Positions 6,974 to 50,176 of a DNA stretch of 64,000 nucleotides are shown in pieces. The stretch is from Mariniplasma anaerobium. Lineage in GTDB: Bacteria; Bacillota_I; Bacilli_A; Acholeplasmatales; Acholeplasmataceae. The DNA lies in assembly GCF_016865445.1 (NCBI RefSeq), contig NZ_AP024412.1, positions 1,116,001 through 1,180,000 on the forward strand, in the 5' to 3' direction. Numbering within the stretch: position 1 is the first letter of the stretch; each line of letters starts with the position of its first letter. Position numbers and translations under genes: made by a program. The notes under the pieces were generated by a model. That model made no database searches, was not told the DNA's origin, and saw only the letters and a program-made list of their open reading frames with translations.

Positions 6974-6994
6974 TATTTGATTTTATCAGTTTAT

Positions 6995-9900
6995 TTAGTC
7001 GACGACTACAGTTGTAAATCTATAATTTAATTCACCAATCGCTGTATCTTCAAACGTTACATAAATTGATACGCTACCAGCTCCTGAACCAAGAACAAAT
7101 GTAACGACATTTCCATTTACTTCTGCTCTAGAATTCGATGTAGTAACAGTATAATTTTGATTTGTCGCATTTGCTGGAAGAATACTATCAACACTAATCG
7201 TCACAACTGTTCCAATATCAACAGCATCCCTAATTGCATCGTTATTAGCTTCAGGTAAAGTTAGGACATCTGCTGTAACAACAACACTTGTAATAGGGAC
7301 ATCTGCTACAACTTCAACAGTTGTAAATCTATAGTTCAATTCTCCAATTGCTGGATCTTCAAAGGTTACATAAACAGATACACTACCAGGTCCTGTAGAT
7401 CCATATACAAAGGTTACAACATTTCCTACAGCTTCTGCTCTAGAATTTGAAGTTGTAACTGTATAGTTTTGGTTTGTTGCATTTGCTGGAAGAATTTCAA
7501 CACTAAATGTTGCAACTGTTCCAATATCAACTAAATCTCTAACATCAGCATTATTAGCTTCAGGAAGAGTTAAAACATCTGTTGTGACAACAACACTTGT
7601 AATAGAGATTTCTGCTGGCGCTTCTAGAGTTGTAAATCTATAATTTAATTCTCCAATAGCTGGATCTTCAAAAGTTACATAAACAGATACACTACCAGGT
7701 CCTGTATCTCCATATACAAATGTTACAACATTGTCTACAGCTTCTGCTCTAGAATTTGATGTAGTTATTGTATAATTTTGGTTAGTTGCATTTAAAGGAA
7801 GAATATCAATACTAAATGTTGCGACTGTACCAATATAAACTTCATCTCTAATTGCATCATTATTAGCTTCAGGTAAAGTTAGAACATCTGTTGTTACAGT
7901 TACATCTGTAATAGAAATATCTTCTCCTGCACCTTCAATGGTTGTAAATCTATATTCTAAAGTATCCATACTTGCATCTTCAAAATCTATTTTAATACTT
8001 ACACTACCAGGTCCTGTATTTCCATATACAAAGGTTACAACATTCCCAACAGCTTCTGCTCTTGAGTTAGATGTAGAAATTGTATATCCTTGATATTCTG
8101 CATCTAATGGTAGTATTTCTACAGTAAGTTCGATAATTGAACCTATTTCTATTTCATCTCTTACATCAATATTATTAACTTCTGGCAATGTAATACTATC
8201 AGCGGTAACAACTACGCTAGTAATTTGAGTGTAATCTTCTACTGTAACTTCAATAGTATCTGTGTATCCACCATCTCTTGTTGTCACAGTAACTGTTGCA
8301 TTACCTGCACCAACACCTGTAATGACACCATCACCTGATATTTCAACAATTGCTTCATCACTTGAAGTCCATGTTGTAAATGCATCAGGAGCATTTGCTG
8401 GTGAAATTGAAAATTCTAAGTTTTCTGTTGCTCCAAAAGGTAAGACAACTGAATCTAAAACGATATTAACACCAGTTACAGCACCTTGTTGCCATAATAA
8501 GACACCACTTGCTGCAAATTTATTACCAAGTTTTGTTAAATCAGCTGCATTAAATTCTGGTAACATAGGTAATTGACTATCTCCAGATTTCCATGCATTA
8601 GATGTAGATGAATTCACTAAATCTCTAAAAAATACTGTATTTGCATCAAAACCACTAGGAGCGATATCATATTTAGTTAAAGTTGTTTTTGTATTAGCTG
8701 CTGTCAATTTGACACCACCATCATCTTTAATTGCAACTTCTGCAAATACATATGTATTGGTAATTGTTCCACCAGTTAAAGTTAAACCTGTGACACCACC
8801 AACAAAATCTCTACCACCAATGATTGCACCACCGACATAAGTATTTGTGATTTCACCAGCATTAATACCAGCTATACCACCAACATATAAGTCACCATGT
8901 ACTGAAGCAACGCCTAAATTATTTGCTGAATCACCTAGTGCTTCTGCCATTGATTTATCAATAAATTCTTTTGCACTTAATGATCTTGCAAATGAAGACT
9001 CACTAATAACGCCTTCGTTATATCCTGCAATACCACCAAATCCAACATTTTTACCTTCATTGCCATCTCCACTCGTGCTATATGCACTTTGTGCAAATAC
9101 TCTACCACTAACTACACTTTGTGTAATGGTTCCAAAATTATATCCTGTAATCCCACCACCAAATGAATAAGTATTAGAACTTCTACCACTATTTGCTTGA
9201 TTTCCAGCAGGAAGTGTTGCAGTTACATAAGCTTGTTGAATCAAACCATAATTATAAGCGGATACTCCACCTACACCGCGACCAGCTTTAACTGCTCCAG
9301 CACCACCAACAGATACATTACTAATAGTACCAGTTAATCCATTAACTCCTACTAATCCACCAGCACCACTTGTTTGATCAGTTAAATCTACTGTACCAGT
9401 AAATACTACCAATTCACCTTGATATCTAGCATTTGTTAATGACGCTCTTGCATCAATATTTTCAATTAAACCATTATTAGTATCAGCAACAGCACCTATA
9501 GGATATAGATTATCTTCTGCTGCACTTAAAGTTGTTGTAGCATCTATAATAAGATTTTTAACAACACCAGCTTCACCAATTTCATGGAATAAACCACCAT
9601 TACCTGTAAATGATATTGCCTTATTATTACCATCATATTGTCCATTAAATACAATCTTGCGATCATTATTAATTTCAATTGGTTCTGTTAATGTCATTAA
9701 TACATCTTGTACTTGTTGATAGTAAGCATCAGCAGATACATCACCATCTAATATAGCTAGGACATCAGAAACCATAGAGACTCTATAAGGATTTTCTTGA
9801 CTACCAAGACCACCTAATAAAACTTCTTCACTAATAGCTTCTTCAATACCAGCAACGACTTTAACCAAGTAATATCCACCTTGTGGAATAACTGTTGGTG

Positions 9901-10378
9901 TGAATACTACAGTATCTAGCACTTCTTGATCATCAATATCAAATGCACCATCGACTTCAGTGTAGCTAGTGCCATCTACAGGTTTAACATAAACGCTAAA
10001 CGTTTGTAGTTCTGCATCTGTTTGTTGCCAAGTAATATTTGATGAGAATATTTCATCAGTCACCATAATATTTGTTGGTGTTGATGATATTTCTATCCAT
10101 GTAGCAACTAAAGTAATATCTTCAGTTACAATATCAATATTAAAATCCCATTCAAATGTACCATTCATCCATATATCAGAGAATAAATATCCGTCTCTTA
10201 ATGGATCACTAGGTTTAGTGACTTTACCGCCATTTAAAACTTCTTGTTCAGCAATTAAAGTACCACCTGCTGTGTCAAATGTAACTGTATACTTTAATTC
10301 CTCTTCTGTTGTTTGTTTACATCCTACAGCGAATCCTAATAAAAGTACTGCTGCAATTAATAAAAACATTTTTTTCAT
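6995..10378 (-). CDS. Large multidomain surface lipoprotein (InlB-B/Flg_new, GLUG, BIG2 and four tandem repeats)
   Basis: The 1127-residue protein starts with signal MKKMFLLIAAVLLLGFAVGC (lipid-modified Cys20). Domains in order: an InlB B-repeat/Listeria-Bacteroides type unit (about 29-95, YTVTFDTAGGTLIAEQEV); a fibronectin-like stretch (about 100-185); a long GLUG-rich region (about 300-550) with GGLVGVNG, GGVSAYNYG, GGITGYNFG, GGIAGYNEG and GGIAGINAG; a BIG2 domain (about 632-716, TTWTSSDEAIVEISGDGVIT); then four tandem units of about 103 residues (ITSVVVTADVLTLPEAN...TTSNSRAEA). The plan suits an adhesive or structural surface protein. No Shine-Dalgarno site lies next to the ATG. A GGAG is separated from it by a small hairpin (10390-10408). 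Confidence 0.88.
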   Translation of the reverse strand: MKKMFLLIAAVLLLGFAVGCKQTTEEELKYTVTFDTAGGTLIAEQEVLNGGKVTKPSDPLRDGYLFSDIWMNGTFEWDFNIDIVTEDITLVATWIEISSTPTNIMVTDEIFSSNITWQQTDAELQTFSVYVKPVDGTSYTEVDGAFDIDDQEVLDTVVFTPTVIPQGGYYLVKVVAGIEEAISEEVLLGGLGSQENPYRVSMVSDVLAILDGDVSADAYYQQVQDVLMTLTEPIEINNDRKIVFNGQYDGNNKAISFTGNGGLFHEIGEAGVVKNLIIDATTTLSAAEDNLYPIGAVADTNNGLIENIDARASLTNARYQGELVVFTGTVDLTDQTSGAGGLVGVNGLTGTISNVSVGGAGAVKAGRGVGGVSAYNYGLIQQAYVTATLPAGNQANSGRSSNTYSFGGGITGYNFGTITQSVVSGRVFAQSAYSTSGDGNEGKNVGFGGIAGYNEGVISESSFARSLSAKEFIDKSMAEALGDSANNLGVASVHGDLYVGGIAGINAGEITNTYVGGAIIGGRDFVGGVTGLTLTGGTITNTYVFAEVAIKDDGGVKLTAANTKTTLTKYDIAPSGFDANTVFFRDLVNSSTSNAWKSGDSQLPMLPEFNAADLTKLGNKFAASGVLLWQQGAVTGVNIVLDSVVLPFGATENLEFSISPANAPDAFTTWTSSDEAIVEISGDGVITGVGAGNATVTVTTRDGGYTDTIEVTVEDYTQITSVVVTADSITLPEVNNIDVRDEIEIGSIIELTVEILPLDAEYQGYTISTSNSRAEAVGNVVTFVYGNTGPGSVSIKIDFEDASMDTLEYRFTTIEGAGEDISITDVTVTTDVLTLPEANNDAIRDEVYIGTVATFSIDILPLNATNQNYTITTSNSRAEAVDNVVTFVYGDTGPGSVSVYVTFEDPAIGELNYRFTTLEAPAEISITSVVVTTDVLTLPEANNADVRDLVDIGTVATFSVEILPANATNQNYTVTTSNSRAEAVGNVVTFVYGSTGPGSVSVYVTFEDPAIGELNYRFTTVEVVADVPITSVVVTADVLTLPEANNDAIRDAVDIGTVVTISVDSILPANATNQNYTVTTSNSRAEVNGNVVTFVLGSGAGSVSIYVTFEDTAIGELNYRFTTVVVD
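6998..8228 (-). repeat. Four tandem coding repeats of about 306-312 bp
   Basis: Repeat units begin near 8225, 7915, 7603 and 7297 (minus strand), with spacing of 310, 312 and 306 bases. All are in frame and encode the C-terminal units of the surface lipoprotein. The three units nearest the C-terminus are most alike, sharing VTFEDPAIGELNYRFTT or a close variant. Such near-identical units can change number by recombination. Confidence 0.85.
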
Positions 10379-14491: not shown

Positions 14492-14516
14492 AAAAAAACA
14501 CCTTTAACAGGTGTTT
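14492..14516. terminator. Terminator copy left of IS1182 copy 1
   Basis: An 8-bp stem (AAACACCT/AGGTGTTT) with loop TTAAC serves the DraG-like gene ending at 14477. Bases 14497-14516 are repeated exactly at 16231-16250 on the other side of the insertion sequence. Confidence 0.85.
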
Positions 14517-14639
14517 CAGACTGTAGACAAAAGGACTTTTCAAAAACGAGTTTTCGTTATGAATCGTCCTTTTTTTGTTTTTTGTGGATAAATATAAAAA
14601 AAAGATCTCTATTTGCTCGATATCAATAATAAAGTAAAG

Positions 14640-15989
14640 CTATGTCCACATTAATGCGGCTAACTTTTTCAAATTATACATACTAAAAATCATGAAGCTT
14701 CGATCTTCATTCTTTTGACGTCCCCTTAAATAGGTAACACCTAGACAGTGATTCATCTTTGAAATCCCAAAAACTCTTTCAACTGATGATTTTCTTTTGG
14801 GATAAAGCTCCCTTCCAATCTCTGAGAGTCTCGTTTCTTTGATTAAAGGATTTACATACTCTAATTGATGTCTTGTTAAACTTCTTGTTTTTTGATTTGT
14901 ACACTGTGCTTTAAATGGGCATTCTATACAATCTTTAACACGTGTCTTGTATTCACGGTATCCTAGTTTATTGGTTCCTCTGTAAGTTAGTATCTTTTCA
15001 TTAGGACATATATAATAGTCATGCATTTCAATATAATCAAATCTATTCTTTGTAAGGTGCCGTTCTCCATTTAGACCTATAGAACCATCTTTTCCTTTAG
15101 GCCGTTTATATGGCAATACAGGTAGGACTTTTCGCTTATATATTTCATTAAGAAGAATTGGATTATCATATCCAGAGTCCATGACTGCCACTTTAACTTC
15201 CTTATGGGTATCTAGATAGTTAACTACTGTATCTAATCCTGTTATACTATCATGAAGGTTTCCTGCAAACATCTCAGAGGATAAAACCCAACCGTTCTCA
15301 TCGCTGATCACTTGATTGCTGTAGGCTAATTGTCGCTCTTTTTCACCTTTATGAAACATCCCGCAATCTGGATCAGTTAAACTGATGATTGCTTTCTTTG
15401 GGCTATCATAATCAATGATTTTCTTACCTTCTTTTAGTCTAAGTTCATTAATTTCTTCATGGAGCTGTTTAACATATTTATGTGTTGAATCATTGATTAA
15501 GATATCATTAACACGTCTTTTATTGGCATATGCTTTAATATGTGTTGAATCGACAAAGATGTTATCCATCTTGACTAACTTTAAGTTCATTGCTTGATAT
15601 AAAATGGTGTTGAAAATTTCTTCAAATATATCTGTGTCTTTAAATCGTCTAACGTAATTTTTTCCAAATGTTGAGAAATGAGGAATGTCATCGGAAAAAT
15701 CATATCCTAAAAACCAACGATATGCAACGTTTACTTCGATTTCTTCAATCGTACGTCTCATCGAACGAATGTTAAATAAATATTGAATAAAGACAATTTT
15801 AAATAAAACGACTGGATCAATTGAAGGTCTGCCCATATCATCTGAATATAAATGCTCGACAATATCATAGATAAAATCAAACTGCATCACTTTATCCACC
15901 TTGCGGACTAAATGATTTTGTGGGACAAGTGAATCAATATCAACGACTTGTAGATTCTTGGTGTTGTTTTTTTGATCTCTATTTAACAT
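14640..15989 (-). CDS. IS1182-family DDE transposase, copy 1
   Basis: A 449-residue transposase. The N-terminal DUF772-type region reads LVPQNHLVRKVDKVMQFDFI and GRPSIDPVVLFKIVFIQYLF. The DDE core shows FVDSTHIKAYANKRR, VAVMDSGYDNPILLNEIYKR and the C-terminal glutamate region KSSVERVFGISKMNHCLG. A zinc-type cluster CPNEK...CIECPFKAQC precedes the last domain. The frame is complete and the protein is identical to that of copy 2, so the insertion is probably recent. Shine-Dalgarno AAGGTGG lies before the ATG. Confidence 0.95.
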   Translation of the reverse strand: MLNRDQKNNTKNLQVVDIDSLVPQNHLVRKVDKVMQFDFIYDIVEHLYSDDMGRPSIDPVVLFKIVFIQYLFNIRSMRRTIEEIEVNVAYRWFLGYDFSDDIPHFSTFGKNYVRRFKDTDIFEEIFNTILYQAMNLKLVKMDNIFVDSTHIKAYANKRRVNDILINDSTHKYVKQLHEEINELRLKEGKKIIDYDSPKKAIISLTDPDCGMFHKGEKERQLAYSNQVISDENGWVLSSEMFAGNLHDSITGLDTVVNYLDTHKEVKVAVMDSGYDNPILLNEIYKRKVLPVLPYKRPKGKDGSIGLNGERHLTKNRFDYIEMHDYYICPNEKILTYRGTNKLGYREYKTRVKDCIECPFKAQCTNQKTRSLTRHQLEYVNPLIKETRLSEIGRELYPKRKSSVERVFGISKMNHCLGVTYLRGRQKNEDRSFMIFSMYNLKKLAALMWT

Positions 15990-16023
15990 ATATAAGCACC
16001 ACCTTATACATATATTTTACCAC

Positions 16024-16049
16024 TTACCTATATATTTATATATAGGTAA
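16024..16049. promoter_or_regulatory. Palindrome upstream of the IS1182 transposase (copy 1)
   Basis: TTACCTATATA (16024-16034) and its exact complement (16039-16049) flank a 4-base loop, 35 bases before the transposase ATG. It may be an operator, a promoter-blocking hairpin or part of the end-binding site. The same sequence occurs in copy 2 at 48416-48441. Confidence 0.5.
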
Positions 16050-16069
16050 AAGTGATTTTTTAGAGACAT

Positions 16070-16160
16070 AAAAAAAGAGGAGGACTCAGAACGCCTTTTA
16101 GAACCTTAATAGCTCACGCGTTTTTAAGCAGTCTAAGCCGCACATTTTAAACTGGTCCTC
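16070..16160 (-). terminator. Structured leader/terminator-like region inside the IS1182 right end (copy 1)
   Basis: On the minus strand GAGGAC (16160-16155) can pair with GTCCTC (16085-16080), followed by CTC and seven or more U. About 70 bases between them could fold further. This would stop transcription entering the element before the transposase. The same region in copy 2 is about 48462-48552. Confidence 0.5.
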
Positions 16161-16230
16161 ACATTTGTATTTTATCACTTTTGTAAAAAAAATACCATAT
16201 CCGAAGATATGATACTTTGTCTACAGCCTG

Positions 16231-16250
16231 AACACCTTTAACAGGTGTTT
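16231..16250. repeat. Right 20-bp target duplication (terminator hairpin) of IS1182 copy 1
   Basis: An exact copy of 14497-14516: AACACCT, loop TTAAC, AGGTGTTT. It directly abuts the stop codon of the flavodoxin gene (16251) and so provides that gene with its terminator. Confidence 0.93.
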
Positions 16251-28145: not shown

Positions 28146-28206
28146 TTTAGTTTAAAATGATAAAAGGGGCTGTAATGAAATAAAATCATTATAGTCTATA
28201 AAACAC

Positions 28207-28238
28207 AAAACCACTCTGGAAAATCCAGAGTGGTTTTT
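28207..28238 (+). terminator. Terminator hairpin in the left end of the second IS type
   Basis: A perfect 14-bp stem (28207-28220 with 28224-28237), loop AAA, ends in TTTTT. It lies 15 bases before the transposase ATG, so it stops transcripts coming from the permease operon and shields the transposase. Confidence 0.92.
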
Positions 28239-28252
28239 GATATAATTGAAGT

Positions 28253-29797
28253 ATGCAAAGTACTCAATTAACTCAATCTTATTTTAGCGCAAAACAATTA
28301 AAATTACCACTAGAAATGAACATTTTAATACCATTTGATAGTGAAGTCAGAACATTTGACGAAGTATTTTCAAAAATCGAGGTTAAAAAATACTTAGTAT
28401 CCAAATCTCATCAAGGTAGACTAGGATACAATTCAGTCAATATGTTGAAATTGGTATTGTTTTGCCAGATGGAAAAAATCCATAGTTTAAGAGCAATGGA
28501 AAAGGCAGCTAAAAATGATATTAGGCTCATGTGGTTGACTAATGAGTTAAAACCAAGCCATAATACCATCAAAGAATTTATTAATACCCACTTAAAAACA
28601 TCCATCGAAGATATCTTTTTAGAGATCAATCAATATATCGCAAAAAAAGAACAAATTGATATCAATACCTTATATATAGATGGGACAAAGATAGAGGCAA
28701 ACGCAAACAAATATAAATTTGTTTGGAAGAACTCAATTCTTAAGTTTAAACAAAAACTTCAACTCAAAATTACCAAGACTCTGCACAAATTAAATGAAGA
28801 CTATAAACATTTAGGCATCTACTTTCTGATCAAAGAAGATTATGAGATATCATATTTAGAAAAGATTAGAGATTTCTTAGTCAATGAAATTGACAAAGAA
28901 GGCATTGATTTTGTCTATGGCAAAGGGAACCACAAAAGTGGATTACAAAGAGATTATGAAGATATCGTAGACTACATAGAAAAACTAACAAGCTATAATC
29001 ATGATTTAGAGATCATAGGTCCATCAAGAAATTCATATGCAAGAACAGATCATGGTGCAACATATATGCGCATGAAAGACGATCATATGAGAAATGGTCA
29101 ATTAAAGGCTGGATACAACATTCAAATTGGCGTGTCAGATGGATATATCATGCATATGGATGTCTATCAGAATCGAAGCGATTATAAAACATTAGAACCA
29201 TTTCTAGAAGGATTTAATCATAGCTATGGATTTTATCCTAAATATCCTGTAGCAGATGCTGGATATGGTGGACTTATAAATTATAGATATTTAAAATCCA
29301 AAGATATGGAACTCTATCAAAAATATCCAATGTATAAAAAAGAAACCAGCAATCAGAACTATATAAATAGTCCTTATCGTGCAGAAAATTTCACTAAAGA
29401 TAAAAACGGGAATCTAATTTGTCCAAAAGGACGAAAGATGAATTATCTATTTACAAGACACAATGGTAAAGATGTTTATGAGTCATCTACTTGTTTAAGA
29501 TGTCCGCTAGCTTCAAAGTGTAAAAAAGGGAAAGCTCCAAGACGTATTGAAGTCAATGAAGAATTATGGAACTATCAAAAAAAAGCAAGAGATAATCTTC
29601 AATCTGATTTAGGTATAGAACTTAGGATTCAACGCTCAATTCAAGTTGAAGGCGCATTTGGGGTTTTAAAAGAAGACTTTAAATTTAGAAGATTTAAGCG
29701 ACGTGGCATCCAAAATGTTAAATTAGAGTTTATGTTACTCTCAATTGGGTATAATTTATCAAAATATCATAACAAGCAACAACGATTCGTTCAATAG
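28253..29797 (+). CDS. IS1182-family DDE transposase (second type)
   Basis: A 514-residue transposase. N-terminal DUF772 region: GRLGYNSVNMLKLVLFCQME, LMWLTNELKPSHNTIKEFI. DDE core: LYIDGTKIEANANKYKFVW, YPVADAGYGGLINYRYL, and the Glu region IQVEGAFGVLKEDFKFRRFK. A cysteine cluster CLRCPLASKCKKGK precedes the last block. It is complete and unbroken. No Shine-Dalgarno sequence is present before ATG 28253, and TATAAT at 28241-28246 is only 7 bases upstream, so any message from that promoter would be leaderless. It is clearly different from the transposase at 14640 and 47032. Confidence 0.9.
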   Translation: MQSTQLTQSYFSAKQLKLPLEMNILIPFDSEVRTFDEVFSKIEVKKYLVSKSHQGRLGYNSVNMLKLVLFCQMEKIHSLRAMEKAAKNDIRLMWLTNELKPSHNTIKEFINTHLKTSIEDIFLEINQYIAKKEQIDINTLYIDGTKIEANANKYKFVWKNSILKFKQKLQLKITKTLHKLNEDYKHLGIYFLIKEDYEISYLEKIRDFLVNEIDKEGIDFVYGKGNHKSGLQRDYEDIVDYIEKLTSYNHDLEIIGPSRNSYARTDHGATYMRMKDDHMRNGQLKAGYNIQIGVSDGYIMHMDVYQNRSDYKTLEPFLEGFNHSYGFYPKYPVADAGYGGLINYRYLKSKDMELYQKYPMYKKETSNQNYINSPYRAENFTKDKNGNLICPKGRKMNYLFTRHNGKDVYESSTCLRCPLASKCKKGKAPRRIEVNEELWNYQKKARDNLQSDLGIELRIQRSIQVEGAFGVLKEDFKFRRFKRRGIQNVKLEFMLLSIGYNLSKYHNKQQRFVQ

Positions 29798-29840
29798 TTA
29801 TCCTGTGGAAAACTAAAGAATTTTGAAGTTCTCTTTTAAA

Positions 29841-29868
29841 TATGCCTAAAAACAGGTATTTTTTTATG
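29841..29868 (+). terminator. Terminator of the second IS transposase
   Basis: Stem ATGCCT (29842-29847) with AGGTAT (one G-T pair), followed by eight T. It lies 45 bases after the transposase stop. Confidence 0.7.
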
Positions 29869-29882
29869 TTTATCCACAAAAC

Positions 29883-29907
29883 AAAAGAAAAAGGGACTGT
29901 GTAGTCC
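29883..29907 (-). terminator. Outward-protecting terminator in the right end of the second IS
   Basis: GGACT (29894-29898) pairs with AGTCC (29903-29907), and the A-rich 29883-29892 gives a minus-strand U-tract. It would end transcripts of the DUF1801 gene after they enter the element. Confidence 0.65.
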
Positions 29908-29949
29908 ATGAAGATTAAATATTCTTCATTTCATTACAGCCCCTTTTTT

Positions 29950-45666: not shown

Positions 45667-46875
45667 ATGCTTATTAATCCAAGTCTTAGAAGTAATTTCT
45701 TTACAAACGCTCATCCTATCGGGATTAAAAAAAATATGGAAAACTTAATTAAAGAAGTTAAAACTTACCCTTCATTTAAAGGACCTAAAAATGTCTTAAT
45801 TTTAGGTGGTTCTTCTGGTTATGGACTAGCCTCAAGAATCAGTTTAGCTTTTGGCTCAAATTCAAACACCATTAATGTTTCTTTTGAAAGAGCAGCAAGA
45901 TCTAATCAAAGTGGTTCTGCTGGATATTGGAACAATGTCTTTTTTAGATATTTTACCAAAGATAGTCAGCAAAAACATATGGATTTCAATGGTGATGCCT
46001 ATAGCCTTGAGATGAAACAACAAGTTCTAGCTTATGTTAAAGAAAATTTTGGAACACTTGATTTAATCATTTATTCACTTGCCTCAGGTAGACGAAACAA
46101 TCCTGAAACAGGACATATTGTCAATTCATATATAAAACCTTTAGGTAAAACAGCTGTTGGAAAAACACTTGATATTGCAAATATGGAAGTTGTTGAATTA
46201 AGCATTGAACCAGCAAGCGAGCAAGAAACTAAAGATACAGTATATGTCATGGGTGGTAGTGATTGGAAAGATTGGATTGATTTCTTTGATCAAAATGAAG
46301 CTTTATCAAAAAACTTTAAAACTATTTCTTATACATACATTGGCGGTAAAAACACAGATGAAATATATCGAAGTGGTACTTTAGGCAAAGCTAAAGAAGA
46401 CTTAGAGCTAGCAGCATATCAAATGAATCCTATATTAAAAGAAAAATATCAAGGAGAAGCCTTGATATCATCTAGTAAATCAGTTGTTTCAAAAGCAGGT
46501 GTATTCATTCCGCAAATGCCTATCTATGTGGCTTGTTTATTTGATGTTATGAAAGCTCACGAAGTTCATGAAACGACCTTAGAACATAAATATAGACTCT
46601 TTAAAGATATGGTCTATGGACACAAGCGCATCCTTGATGAAAAAGGTAGACTTCGCTTAGATCATAGAGAAATGCAAGATGAAATCCAAGATGAAACACA
46701 AAAGCTTATGAACTCACTTGATGATCAAGCTATTCTAGAGCTAAATGGAACAAAAGAGTTCTTAAAAGAATTCTATCAAATCAATGGATTTGATATGGAT
46801 GGTGTTGATTATGAAAAAGATGTAGATTTAGATCAATTAATTAAGACCTATAAACCTGATAATTATATTTTTTAA
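45667..46875 (+). CDS. fabV: Trans-2-enoyl-[ACP/CoA] reductase, FabV/TER type
   Basis: A 402-residue enzyme. It begins LINPSLRSNFFTNAHPIGIK, has the nucleotide-binding VLILGGSSGYGLASRISLAF, then SGSAGYWNNVFF, IYSLASGRRNNP, and the family active site Tyr-x8-Lys in YRSGTLGKAK. It reduces the enoyl double bond with NADH in fatty-acid synthesis or butyrate-type fermentation. CTAAGGAG lies 9 bases before the ATG. Its terminator hairpin (46882-46908) was duplicated by the insertion next to it. Confidence 0.93.
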   Translation: MLINPSLRSNFFTNAHPIGIKKNMENLIKEVKTYPSFKGPKNVLILGGSSGYGLASRISLAFGSNSNTINVSFERAARSNQSGSAGYWNNVFFRYFTKDSQQKHMDFNGDAYSLEMKQQVLAYVKENFGTLDLIIYSLASGRRNNPETGHIVNSYIKPLGKTAVGKTLDIANMEVVELSIEPASEQETKDTVYVMGGSDWKDWIDFFDQNEALSKNFKTISYTYIGGKNTDEIYRSGTLGKAKEDLELAAYQMNPILKEKYQGEALISSSKSVVSKAGVFIPQMPIYVACLFDVMKAHEVHETTLEHKYRLFKDMVYGHKRILDEKGRLRLDHREMQDEIQDETQKLMNSLDDQAILELNGTKEFLKEFYQINGFDMDGVDYEKDVDLDQLIKTYKPDNYIF

Positions 46876-46881
46876 TTAAAA

Positions 46882-46908
46882 AAAACTATATCTTCAAGAT
46901 ATAGTTTT
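46882..46908. terminator. Left 27-bp target duplication: fabV terminator hairpin
   Basis: AAAACTATATC, loop TTCAA, GATATAGTTTT: an 11-bp perfect stem. It is repeated exactly at 48623-48649 beyond the insertion sequence. Confidence 0.93.
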
Positions 46909-48622
46909 CAGACTGTAGACAAAAGGACTTTTCAAAAACGAGTTTTCGTTATGAATCGTCCTTTTTTTGTTTTTTGTGGATAAATATAAAAAAAAGATCT
47001 CTATTTGCTCGATATCAATAATAAAGTAAAGCTATGTCCACATTAATGCGGCTAACTTTTTCAAATTATACATACTAAAAATCATGAAGCTTCGATCTTC
47101 ATTCTTTTGACGTCCCCTTAAATAGGTAACACCTAGACAGTGATTCATCTTTGAAATCCCAAAAACTCTTTCAACTGATGATTTTCTTTTGGGATAAAGC
47201 TCCCTTCCAATCTCTGAGAGTCTCGTTTCTTTGATTAAAGGATTTACATACTCTAATTGATGTCTTGTTAAACTTCTTGTTTTTTGATTTGTACACTGTG
47301 CTTTAAATGGGCATTCTATACAATCTTTAACACGTGTCTTGTATTCACGGTATCCTAGTTTATTGGTTCCTCTGTAAGTTAGTATCTTTTCATTAGGACA
47401 TATATAATAGTCATGCATTTCAATATAATCAAATCTATTCTTTGTAAGGTGCCGTTCTCCATTTAGACCTATAGAACCATCTTTTCCTTTAGGCCGTTTA
47501 TATGGCAATACAGGTAGGACTTTTCGCTTATATATTTCATTAAGAAGAATTGGATTATCATATCCAGAGTCCATGACTGCCACTTTAACTTCCTTATGGG
47601 TATCTAGATAGTTAACTACTGTATCTAATCCTGTTATACTATCATGAAGGTTTCCTGCAAACATCTCAGAGGATAAAACCCAACCGTTCTCATCGCTGAT
47701 CACTTGATTGCTGTAGGCTAATTGTCGCTCTTTTTCACCTTTATGAAACATCCCGCAATCTGGATCAGTTAAACTGATGATTGCTTTCTTTGGGCTATCA
47801 TAATCAATGATTTTCTTACCTTCTTTTAGTCTAAGTTCATTAATTTCTTCATGGAGCTGTTTAACATATTTATGTGTTGAATCATTGATTAAGATATCAT
47901 TAACACGTCTTTTATTGGCATATGCTTTAATATGTGTTGAATCGACAAAGATGTTATCCATCTTGACTAACTTTAAGTTCATTGCTTGATATAAAATGGT
48001 GTTGAAAATTTCTTCAAATATATCTGTGTCTTTAAATCGTCTAACGTAATTTTTTCCAAATGTTGAGAAATGAGGAATGTCATCGGAAAAATCATATCCT
48101 AAAAACCAACGATATGCAACGTTTACTTCGATTTCTTCAATCGTACGTCTCATCGAACGAATGTTAAATAAATATTGAATAAAGACAATTTTAAATAAAA
48201 CGACTGGATCAATTGAAGGTCTGCCCATATCATCTGAATATAAATGCTCGACAATATCATAGATAAAATCAAACTGCATCACTTTATCCACCTTGCGGAC
48301 TAAATGATTTTGTGGGACAAGTGAATCAATATCAACGACTTGTAGATTCTTGGTGTTGTTTTTTTGATCTCTATTTAACATATATAAGCACCACCTTATA
48401 CATATATTTTACCACTTACCTATATATTTATATATAGGTAAAAGTGATTTTTTAGAGACATAAAAAAAGAGGAGGACTCAGAACGCCTTTTAGAACCTTA
48501 ATAGCTCACGCGTTTTTAAGCAGTCTAAGCCGCACATTTTAAACTGGTCCTCACATTTGTATTTTATCACTTTTGTAAAAAAAATACCATATCCGAAGAT
48601 ATGATACTTTGTCTACAGCCTG
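46909..48622 (-). mobile_element. IS1182-type insertion sequence, copy 2 (1714 bp)
   Basis: Same length, orientation, terminal repeats and internal signals as the element at 14517-16230; I found no base differences on reading both. It is flanked by a 27-bp direct duplication that is an intrinsic terminator. It lies between the convergent fabV and amylase genes. A DnaA-box TTATCCACA lies on the minus strand at 46975-46983. The palindrome upstream of the transposase is at 48416-48441. Confidence 0.93.
47032..48381 (-). CDS. IS1182-family DDE transposase, copy 2
   Basis: A 449-residue protein identical to the product of 14640-15989, with the same FVDSTHIKAYANKRR, VAVMDSGYDNP and VERVFGISKMNH blocks of the DDE core. 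It is intact, with AAGGTGG before the ATG. The identity of the two copies points to recent movement or gene conversion. Confidence 0.95.
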   Translation of the reverse strand: MLNRDQKNNTKNLQVVDIDSLVPQNHLVRKVDKVMQFDFIYDIVEHLYSDDMGRPSIDPVVLFKIVFIQYLFNIRSMRRTIEEIEVNVAYRWFLGYDFSDDIPHFSTFGKNYVRRFKDTDIFEEIFNTILYQAMNLKLVKMDNIFVDSTHIKAYANKRRVNDILINDSTHKYVKQLHEEINELRLKEGKKIIDYDSPKKAIISLTDPDCGMFHKGEKERQLAYSNQVISDENGWVLSSEMFAGNLHDSITGLDTVVNYLDTHKEVKVAVMDSGYDNPILLNEIYKRKVLPVLPYKRPKGKDGSIGLNGERHLTKNRFDYIEMHDYYICPNEKILTYRGTNKLGYREYKTRVKDCIECPFKAQCTNQKTRSLTRHQLEYVNPLIKETRLSEIGRELYPKRKSSVERVFGISKMNHCLGVTYLRGRQKNEDRSFMIFSMYNLKKLAALMWT

Positions 48623-48649
48623 AAAACTATATCTTCAAGATATAGTTTT
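48623..48649. repeat. Right 27-bp target duplication (terminator hairpin) of IS1182 copy 2
   Basis: An exact copy of 46882-46908 immediately after the element's CAGCCTG end, six bases from the amylase stop. It serves as the terminator of the amylase gene, with A residues in the stem flank and a T-run on the plus strand. Confidence 0.93.
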
Positions 48650-48655
48650 ATTTTT

Positions 48656-50176
48656 TTATACACGCTTATAAGCAGTATAGCTTTCTACTACTTTTGTATT
48701 AGGTTTTACAACTACAAAAGCCTTTGGTTTCAATGACACCTTGATAAAGCCTGCCCAAAAATCAATGATTTTGCCATCACCTAAAATGATATCAAAATTA
48801 GAAAAGTTCATGATTTTAGAATCCGCTATTAAAATATCTTCTATGACTTCTTTGTCTGTTGGATTCATAAATACTAAAACCGTATCATCAACGTTATCTG
48901 TTTTTCTTTCAAATGCAATAATTTTTTCAGCCCTAGTTGAGATAAAATCTCCTATTTTTAATGCTCTTTGATTTTGATGCATATGAATTAAGGATTTAGT
49001 CCATCGATATGTTTCATTTGAGTCATTGACCATATCCCATCGCATAGGTGCTCTTGATAGTGGTTCATTGCCACCTTCCATACCAAGTTCTGTGCCATAA
49101 TAAACATTAGGTGAACCCGGTAAAGTAAATTGCAACACTTGTGCTAATTTACGATCTTTATCATCTTTGATTTGATCTGTTAATCTTGCTGTATCATGGT
49201 TATCTAGAATCAACCAAGATTTTAGCAACCCTTCCATATTAGAATCAGTAATCATTTGATCTAAATACGTGTTAGCTTGTTTTGGTGATAAATCACCATT
49301 GATTGCTCTTTTAGTTAATTCTCTAAAAGTAAAATTCATAACTCCATCAATTGAATCTAACCAATCCTTAGGGTAATTCCAAATTTCACCAACTACTAAA
49401 CTACCCTTTTTTTCATCATGAGCATTTTCAGTTAACTCAGATAAAAACTTATAACCAATATCAAATGCAACATCTAATCTCCATCCATCAATTCCATTTC
49501 TTAAATAACTTCTAATCACTGAATCTTTTGCACGATATAAATAATCTCTTACTTTTTCGTTTTCTAAATTCCATTCAGGCATGCTAGGTACATCAGCCCA
49601 TAGTCTAACACCATGAGGATATTTTTCATTAAAGTCAAACCAATCATGTTTATCACTTTTTGGATCTTGAGCTTCTATGTATATAGGATTGTTAATCCCT
49701 ACATGATTAAAAACTCCATCTAAAATGATTTTCATGTCTTCTTGATGTAGTCTGTCACATAGTTCTTTTAAGTCTTCTGCTGTGCCATATTCTTTTGAAA
49801 TCTTCATATAATCAGAGGCATCATACTTGTGATTAGAAAGAGATTCAGGAATTGGATTTAAATAAAGAACATCTACACCTAAATCTTTAATATATTTTAG
49901 TTTTGAAATAACACTCTTTAAATCTCCACCCCAATATTCTAATTCATGTTCCCAATATTTTACATCTTTATTAAAAGGACCTGGCTTAGGAGTTTCATCC
50001 CAAGCTTTTAATACTTTAGGATATTTGTATAAATCTTTTTTAATCTCTAGGTTTTCACTTGGCGCAAATCGATCAACTAATATTTGATATACGATTGCTC
50101 CATTTCTGAAATCTTTTTCTCTTTTCGAAAACTTTTTGACTTCTTTTTCTACTCTATTTTTATAAAGATTACTCAT
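48656..50176 (-). CDS. GH13 alpha-glucan hydrolase (alpha-amylase/neopullulanase-like), cytoplasmic
   Basis: A 506-residue glycoside hydrolase family 13 protein without a signal peptide. The four conserved regions are DGVFNHVG, GWRLDVAFD (nucleophile Asp), VVGEIWNY (acid Glu) and LLDNHDTARL (third Asp). It starts GAIVYQILVDRFAPS. The family in this form splits maltodextrins or cyclodextrins inside the cell. The product type cannot be settled. AGGTGAT lies before the ATG. glgA at 61 kb is the only other glucan gene in the window. Confidence 0.9.
   Translation of the reverse strand: MSNLYKNRVEKEVKKFSKREKDFRNGAIVYQILVDRFAPSENLEIKKDLYKYPKVLKAWDETPKPGPFNKDVKYWEHELEYWGGDLKSVISKLKYIKDLGVDVLYLNPIPESLSNHKYDASDYMKISKEYGTAEDLKELCDRLHQEDMKIILDGVFNHVGINNPIYIEAQDPKSDKHDWFDFNEKYPHGVRLWADVPSMPEWNLENEKVRDYLYRAKDSVIRSYLRNGIDGWRLDVAFDIGYKFLSELTENAHDEKKGSLVVGEIWNYPKDWLDSIDGVMNFTFRELTKRAINGDLSPKQANTYLDQMITDSNMEGLLKSWLILDNHDTARLTDQIKDDKDRKLAQVLQFTLPGSPNVYYGTELGMEGGNEPLSRAPMRWDMVNDSNETYRWTKSLIHMHQNQRALKIGDFISTRAEKIIAFERKTDNVDDTVLVFMNPTDKEVIEDILIADSKIMNFSNFDIILGDGKIIDFWAGFIKVSLKPKAFVVVKPNTKVVESYTAYKRV

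Follow-up and report, generated by a model that had tools for sequence, protein, structure and literature searches.

The 64,000-nt stretch of the Mariniplasma anaerobium genome that was analysed here (assembly GCF_016865445.1, NZ_AP024412.1, positions 1,116,001-1,180,000; called the window, and all coordinates are positions in it) carries two copies of an insertion sequence of the IS1182 family, here called element 1, and each copy is flanked by exact duplicates of a whole terminator-like hairpin. The same holds beyond the window: over 40 insertions of element 1 and its relatives, the target repeat varies from 17 to 36 bp, coincides with a hairpin and is nearly always centred on it, while empty sites of two relatives carry one hairpin where the occupied sites carry two. 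We consider it fairly probable that the predicted DDE transposase of such an element, landing at terminator-like hairpins, recognises the cruciform, joins its 3' ends at the 5' feet of the hairpin and leaves repair to copy the hairpin onto both flanks.

In the window, copy 1 (14517..16230) and copy 2 (46909..48622), both on the minus strand and each 1,714 bp long, are 100% identical in sequence. Copy 2 is inserted between the 3' ends of two convergent genes, fabV on its left (45667..46875, plus strand, by profile match) and an alpha-amylase-domain gene on its right (48656..50176, minus strand, by domain match). Its target repeat AAAACTATATCTTCAAGATATAGTTTT is 27 bp long and is found in exact match at 46882..46908, just 3' of fabV, and at 48623..48649; that of copy 1, AACACCTTTAACAGGTGTTT, is 20 bp long and is matched exactly at 14497..14516 and 16231..16250. 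When folded as DNA, the four flanking hairpins gave z values of -4.4, -3.1, -8.1 and -2.7, and 0, 0, 0 and 2 of 200 shuffles each folded as well. An earlier sequence-only reading of this DNA had claimed that the 27-bp repeat at copy 2 is a duplicated stem-loop between fabV and an amylase gene, and the exact repeats, the folding and the profiles bear it out. Its details of the folds did not hold: in place of an 11-bp stem with a five-base loop, the right hairpin of copy 2 folds with a stem of 12 bp and a loop of 3 bases, and the stem at copy 1, put at 7 or 8 bp, can extend to 10 bp once the empty site is rebuilt, since the A:T tail joins in the pairing.

The ends of element 1 are CAGACTGTAGACAAA and, inverted, CAGGCTGTAGACAAA, with 14 of 18 end bases in agreement; in copy 2 the terminal inverted repeats lie at 46909..46923 (CAGACTGTAGACAAA) and 48608..48622 (TTTGTCTACAGCCTG). 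Each copy encodes a predicted DDE transposase of 449 aa on the minus strand (47032..48381 in copy 2 and 14640..15989 in copy 1), which is placed in the IS1182 family by the NCBIfam profile NF033551 (361 bits; cut-off 270). The Pfam domains found in it are limited to DUF772 and two DDE domains, so that it has the DDE core, and no domain of an HUH transposase of the IS200/IS605 kind was found. By sequence, no solved structure came close to it (best E 0.019).

Relatives were collected by transposase searches, which overlap one another and count the host in. Within the genus 3 of 5 genomes had a match, within the family 6 of 88, in a class sample 12 of 296 and in a phylum sample 14 of 393; further matches came from 26 loci in public genome contigs, 330 plasmid records (E 1e-40) and 14 phage records, and a search of viral contigs gave no match. 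The loci considered were L018-L112 minus L074-L085, the latter being obtained by DNA search for flanks, which makes 83; L105 and L107 were excluded since one or both of their ends are missing, and the remaining 81 entered the repeat finder. Among these, 38 had a repeat of at least 10 bp, 15 were duplicates, 14 lacked an end pair and 14 had a repeat below 10 bp. The 40 insertions are the 38 together with two that were rebuilt from swapped flanks, as described below. They come from Acholeplasma-like bacteria, Bacillota, streptococcal phages and plasmids of Enterococcus, Sutcliffiella, Peribacillus, Brevibacillus and Providencia, with transposases 33% to 100% identical to that of the window over the best segment. 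In one of them, from an Acholeplasma sp. contig (L048), the two 17-bp repeats differ at the central loop base alone, A versus T; either one, reverse-complemented, gives the other exactly, which would fit a flipped hairpin or a single mutation.

When the hairpin was searched for up to 25 bases outside the repeat, the two had their centres no more than half a base apart in 37 of the 40 insertions. Symmetric pairing about the exact middle of the repeat, with no mismatch or G:T pair allowed, averages 0.86 against 0.27 in random windows, and is 0.75 or higher in 35 repeats and lower in the other 5. Such centring and pairing would also be expected if the hairpin were read as a dyad in B-form DNA, each transposase subunit binding one arm and cutting outside it, with no cruciform at all. 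We regard this as unlikely, though it deserves to be taken seriously: no half-site sequence is evident among the repeats, as judged by eye without a motif search, and spacings of 17 to 36 bp would place the subunits on many helical faces, which would be hard for a fixed dimer.

To relate repeat length to the hairpin, the stem was barred from running past the A:T tail, and a core was defined as the part closed by the outermost G:C pair. Repeat length is correlated with the core (rho 0.59, p 6e-5, n=40) and more weakly with the full stem (rho 0.48, slope 0.36), for which reason a strict full-stem rule was rejected; it is not correlated with the loop (rho 0.23, p 0.16). Loops run from 3 to 8 bases over the 40 insertions, and the five-base loop that the sequence-only reading had given to both hairpins, rejected already by the 3-base fold at copy 2, is not a constant of the target. 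All 40 repeats are at least as long as the core (permuted lengths: mean 34.3, maximum 40), and in 39 the repeat is no shorter than the core and no longer than the full stem plus 4, which none of 20,000 permutations reached as often (mean 29.6, highest 38). On each side the repeat runs past the outermost G:C pair by 3.05 bases on average, with a range of 0 to 10.5. The G+C content of the 5' arm, read inward, is 0.15, 0.22 and 0.22 at bases 1-3 and then 0.62 at base 4. The repeats thus have neither a fixed length nor a length unrelated to the hairpin, the two outcomes which the earlier reading had named as telling against its proposal. That repeat length follows stem length stands in the sense of the correlation with the core, while the strict rule that had been proposed does not, as the slope and the residual spread given below show.

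Comparison with empty sites bears directly on where the flanking hairpins come from. In the Providencia IncC plasmid NZ_CP120532, a relative with 33% identity lies between traL and a hypothetical gene and is flanked by two copies of AGGCGGCCTAAGCCGCCT; 963 plasmid records match some part of this stretch, NZ_CP120532 alone covers at least 80% of it, and two of the other records share 636 bases with it, in which AGGCGGCCTAAGCCGCCT occurs once. An ISEfa7 copy in Enterococcus faecium NZ_CP025427 likewise has GGATTGAACATTATGTTCAATCC on both sides, while CP130862, which shares 895 bases with this site, has it once. These two natural sites prove that one hairpin turned into two. Searches with two further loci, L108 and L110, yielded no empty site among the matches read, and for the window copies no empty site of the same strain was found. 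A terminator-like hairpin is nevertheless present in the IS-free species G003 at the place corresponding to copy 1, and directly after fabV, the site of copy 2, in the IS-free relatives G003 and G004; since the amylase gene is not adjacent to fabV in these relatives, an orthologous hairpin is present for the fabV side of copy 2 only.

The host genome holds five insertions of element 1 at five different hairpins, with repeats of 20-27 bp. Three have repeats of 20, 24 and 27 bp. Of the other two copies, the main contig C1 carries one and the 12.8-kb contig C2 the other, and their flanks are swapped. Crosswise pairing gives two perfect repeats, of 22 and 26 bp, the pattern expected if C2 had been released by recombination between two ordinary insertions in direct orientation. 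C2 may exist as an excised circle, or it may result from the assembly being split at the repeat. On this contig (L016, 12,782 bp), frames resembling parE, parC, plsY and tsf were recognised by eye, and its one element copy is split over the contig ends, with hairpin flanks swapped relative to the copy at C1:962 kb.

It might be held that the element brings the flanking hairpins with it, or that recombination makes them, and that they are not copies of the target; four loci with unlike hairpins at their two ends (L054, L055, L058 and L095) could be cited for it. This account has next to no chance of being right. The hairpin sequence varies among insertions, the two empty sites with a single hairpin and identical flanks refute it at both loci, and the swapped hairpins of C1 and C2 re-pair into two perfect repeats, which is what recombination of normal copies predicts. 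Hairpins borne by the element were rejected on the differing hairpin sequences and the empty sites. The unlike hairpins of the four loci are consistent with what recombination between copies would leave.

These four are among the 14 loci with a repeat below 10 bp. As to the others, L102 and L104 belong to a distant group; L018 is a recombined copy; L051 and L052 are contig breaks with the same hairpin; in L089 one hairpin is altered; L090 was misparsed, though it has hairpins at both its ends; and L035, L056 and L093 have one recognised end, with a hairpin. Taken over the scanned loci, 90 of 102 distinct ends recognised by motif adjoin a perfect stem of at least 6 bp, as do 48 of 1,924 positions drawn at random from these loci. 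No hairpin repeat was seen in the distant members from proteobacteria (Thioclava, ISCfr1, Sphingobium and Sinorhizobium; L101-L104), with one copy each and some ends unsettled. The ISCfr1 copy on an E. coli plasmid (L102) has an apparent short repeat, read as GGCC or as CGGCCG, and lacks a hairpin at its flanks.

A run of at least four A or T occurs within 16 bases around an edge in all 40 insertions and on both sides in 32, and the G+C content of the six bases outside the repeat on the left flank is 0 to 0.15. The target might be the border of the A-tract and T-tract of bidirectional terminators, with the hairpin a bystander, which we think very improbable. Exact bounds of AAA and TTT are found in only 7 of 40 repeats, and 28 of the 33 others have a centred stem of at least 6 bp; moreover, among tract-bounded segments, which overlap and were counted at all repeat lengths, such stems occur in 261 of 1,209 intergenic and 136 of 4,934 genic ones, against 35 of 40 repeats. 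Tract borders as the sole target were rejected on this comparison.

Transcription is close as well. Of the 38 insertions that were scored, 34 have an open frame that points at the hairpin and whose 3' end is no more than 120 bp away, frames being counted from stop to stop at a minimum of 70 codons rather than as annotated genes, and without a control. This would suit a hairpin formed in single-stranded DNA, whether in a transcription bubble or on the lagging-strand template, or a terminator RNA serving as guide. HUH elements of the IS200/IS605 family do use single strands. For element 1 we find such a route improbable: duplication of a whole hairpin would need two coordinated attacks on opposite strands, the domains are those of a DDE enzyme, and 16 of the 38 sites have a frame pointing in from both sides. 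Of the earlier claim that repeat length is set by DNA or RNA structure, what is supported is that the hairpin is duplicated as a unit of varying length, the range of 17-36 bp fitting no fixed stagger; nothing favours RNA.

In the explanation that we prefer, the transposase would recognise the hairpin extruded as a cruciform and each 3' end of the element would be joined to the 5' foot of a hairpin arm; repair of the gaps would then leave a copy of the hairpin on either flank. We infer the extrusion (or, instead of it, two strand hairpins), the attack at the 5' feet and the fill-in repair from the repeats. The two cut sites would lie across the four-way junction, so that an enzyme of fixed geometry could give repeats of 17 to 36 bp. 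The junction may also slide in the A:T margin of the terminator stem; the edges could therefore float, at a mean of about 3 bases outside the outermost G:C pair. As a likely consequence, both neighbour genes would keep a terminator and the element would be insulated.

Several points weigh against this explanation or reduce its force. Short AT-rich stems extrude poorly in plasmids, and extrusion is here inferred. Repeat length tracks the stem only moderately: the regression slope against the core is 0.52, and subtracting the core lowers the standard deviation per side only from 2.17 to 2.13 bases, although no more than 4 of 20,000 permutations gave a value as low as the latter. Among the 16 closest relatives, the full stem is not significantly correlated with repeat length (rho 0.26, p 0.33), while the core is (rho 0.55, p 0.026). 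The definition of the stem was changed twice after results had been seen, with rho 0.42 and then 0.40 to 0.57 under the earlier definitions, and the rule bounding the repeat between the core and the full stem plus 4 was likewise picked after the data had been seen. Of the recognised ends, 12 of 102 lack a perfect 6-bp stem; those shown are mostly mismatched hairpins, and an ISEfa7 end on E. faecium pSU8419_1 (L105) is the sole case seen among the 12 without a visible adjoining hairpin. Finally, Foldseek alone ranked Mos1 first and gave Tn5 a TM-score of only 0.36-0.37, hence the likeness to Tn5 is moderate.

A second IS1182-family element of the same genome, element 2, appears to behave differently. 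The window holds one of its four copies (515-codon frame, up to 288 bits) at 28166..29943 on the plus strand, with ends taken at GGGGCTGTAATG..CATTACAGCCCC, though the A and T runs adjoining these ends may belong to the element; its transposase (28253..29797, plus strand, 514 aa) matches NF033551 with 288 bits. No target repeat was found at the three of four copies parsed by their own ends (L117-L119, L117 by its second-ranked parse; L116 was misparsed). At the site of the window copy, the IS-free G003 has a hairpin between an A-run and a T-run, with the same two neighbour genes; at the site of L117 hairpins are present in both G003 and G004, and for L119 neither genome has a contiguous empty counterpart. 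Element 2 thus appears to have replaced a hairpin, as IS1272 does, the comparison being made across species and not within a strain. When 34 transposases were placed in a tree, a single branch set apart the 23 hairpin duplicators, with support of only 86/90; element 2, IS1182 itself, ISSep1 and relatives form a separate group (100/100), and four proteobacterial members without hairpin repeats a third (100/99). The joins between the groups are unsure because of long branches, and the tree takes in part of the 40 insertions, omitting duplicating rows with short frames (L048, L064 and L099). Within the group without repeats, the ends of L142, L143 and L145 are unsettled and their lack of a repeat means that none was found; the best parse of L146 is 1,945 bp without repeat, which is the size of IS1272 (PMC5678879), and it may be IS1272. 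A broader reading, on which we are evenly divided, is that these transposases measure their target by DNA shape, attack at the 5' feet leading to duplication in the group of element 1 and attack at the 3' feet to deletion in the IS1182/IS1272 group, with both outcomes on the same class of target in one genome.

Elsewhere in the window, positions 6993-8222, within a frame at 6995-10378 (1,127 aa), hold four tandem repeats of about 309 bp, with 64-85% identity to the reference copy.

The length of the target repeat is commonly taken as a fixed fingerprint of each transposase, among which the IS1182 family stands out with 2 to 60 bp, and for one widespread group of that family the hairpin rule accounts for the spread. 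Our data supply the duplicating half of a model published as a drawing only, and point to two related enzymes, found together in nature, that appear to treat one kind of target in opposite ways. They also suggest how an element can be nearly harmless, as both neighbour genes would keep a terminator, and insertion guided by structure to terminators might be put to use as a safe-harbour tool.

With respect to known systems, Tn5 transposase gives a fixed 9-bp target repeat, unlike the variable 17-36 bp of element 1 and its relatives. Hairpins matter for recognition by the transposases of IS200/IS605 and by REP-associated tyrosine transposases too, but these use HUH chemistry and leave no target repeat, whereas element 1 has DDE domains. 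Closer is ISEfa7 of E. faecium, an already known and named element with a transposase 44% identical, which at L109 duplicates a 23-bp hairpin and has a natural empty site. The IS1182 family in ISfinder shares with element 1 the profile family and widely varying repeats; the direct-repeat range of 2 to 60 bp, as quoted from ISfinder in PMC7335449, is given without explanation in the passage quoting it, and in one group it is here accounted for by the hairpin. Hairpin targeting itself has been published for IS1272 and the composite TnSha1 of staphylococci, which also belong to the IS1182 family (PMC5678879, PMC4923244). Both hairpin targeting and the spread of repeat lengths are therefore already known for the family, and what surprises, where the sequence-only reading had called a target length set by structure unusual for a DDE transposase, is the duplication with such a length and not the choice of hairpins. 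In print, duplication by attack at the 5' feet is the hypothetical pathway b of a drawing (PMC5678879), and no demonstration of whole-hairpin duplication was found among the matches listed in the open-access literature, mostly titles and abstract openings, while ISfinder may list such repeats. Like element 1, IS1272 and TnSha1 use hairpins of unrelated sequence, some of them terminators, so that structure and not sequence is recognised. Unlike it, they delete or replace the hairpin and leave no target repeat (PMC5678879, PMC4923244), where element 1 is bordered by exact hairpin repeats and two of its relatives have duplicated the hairpin.
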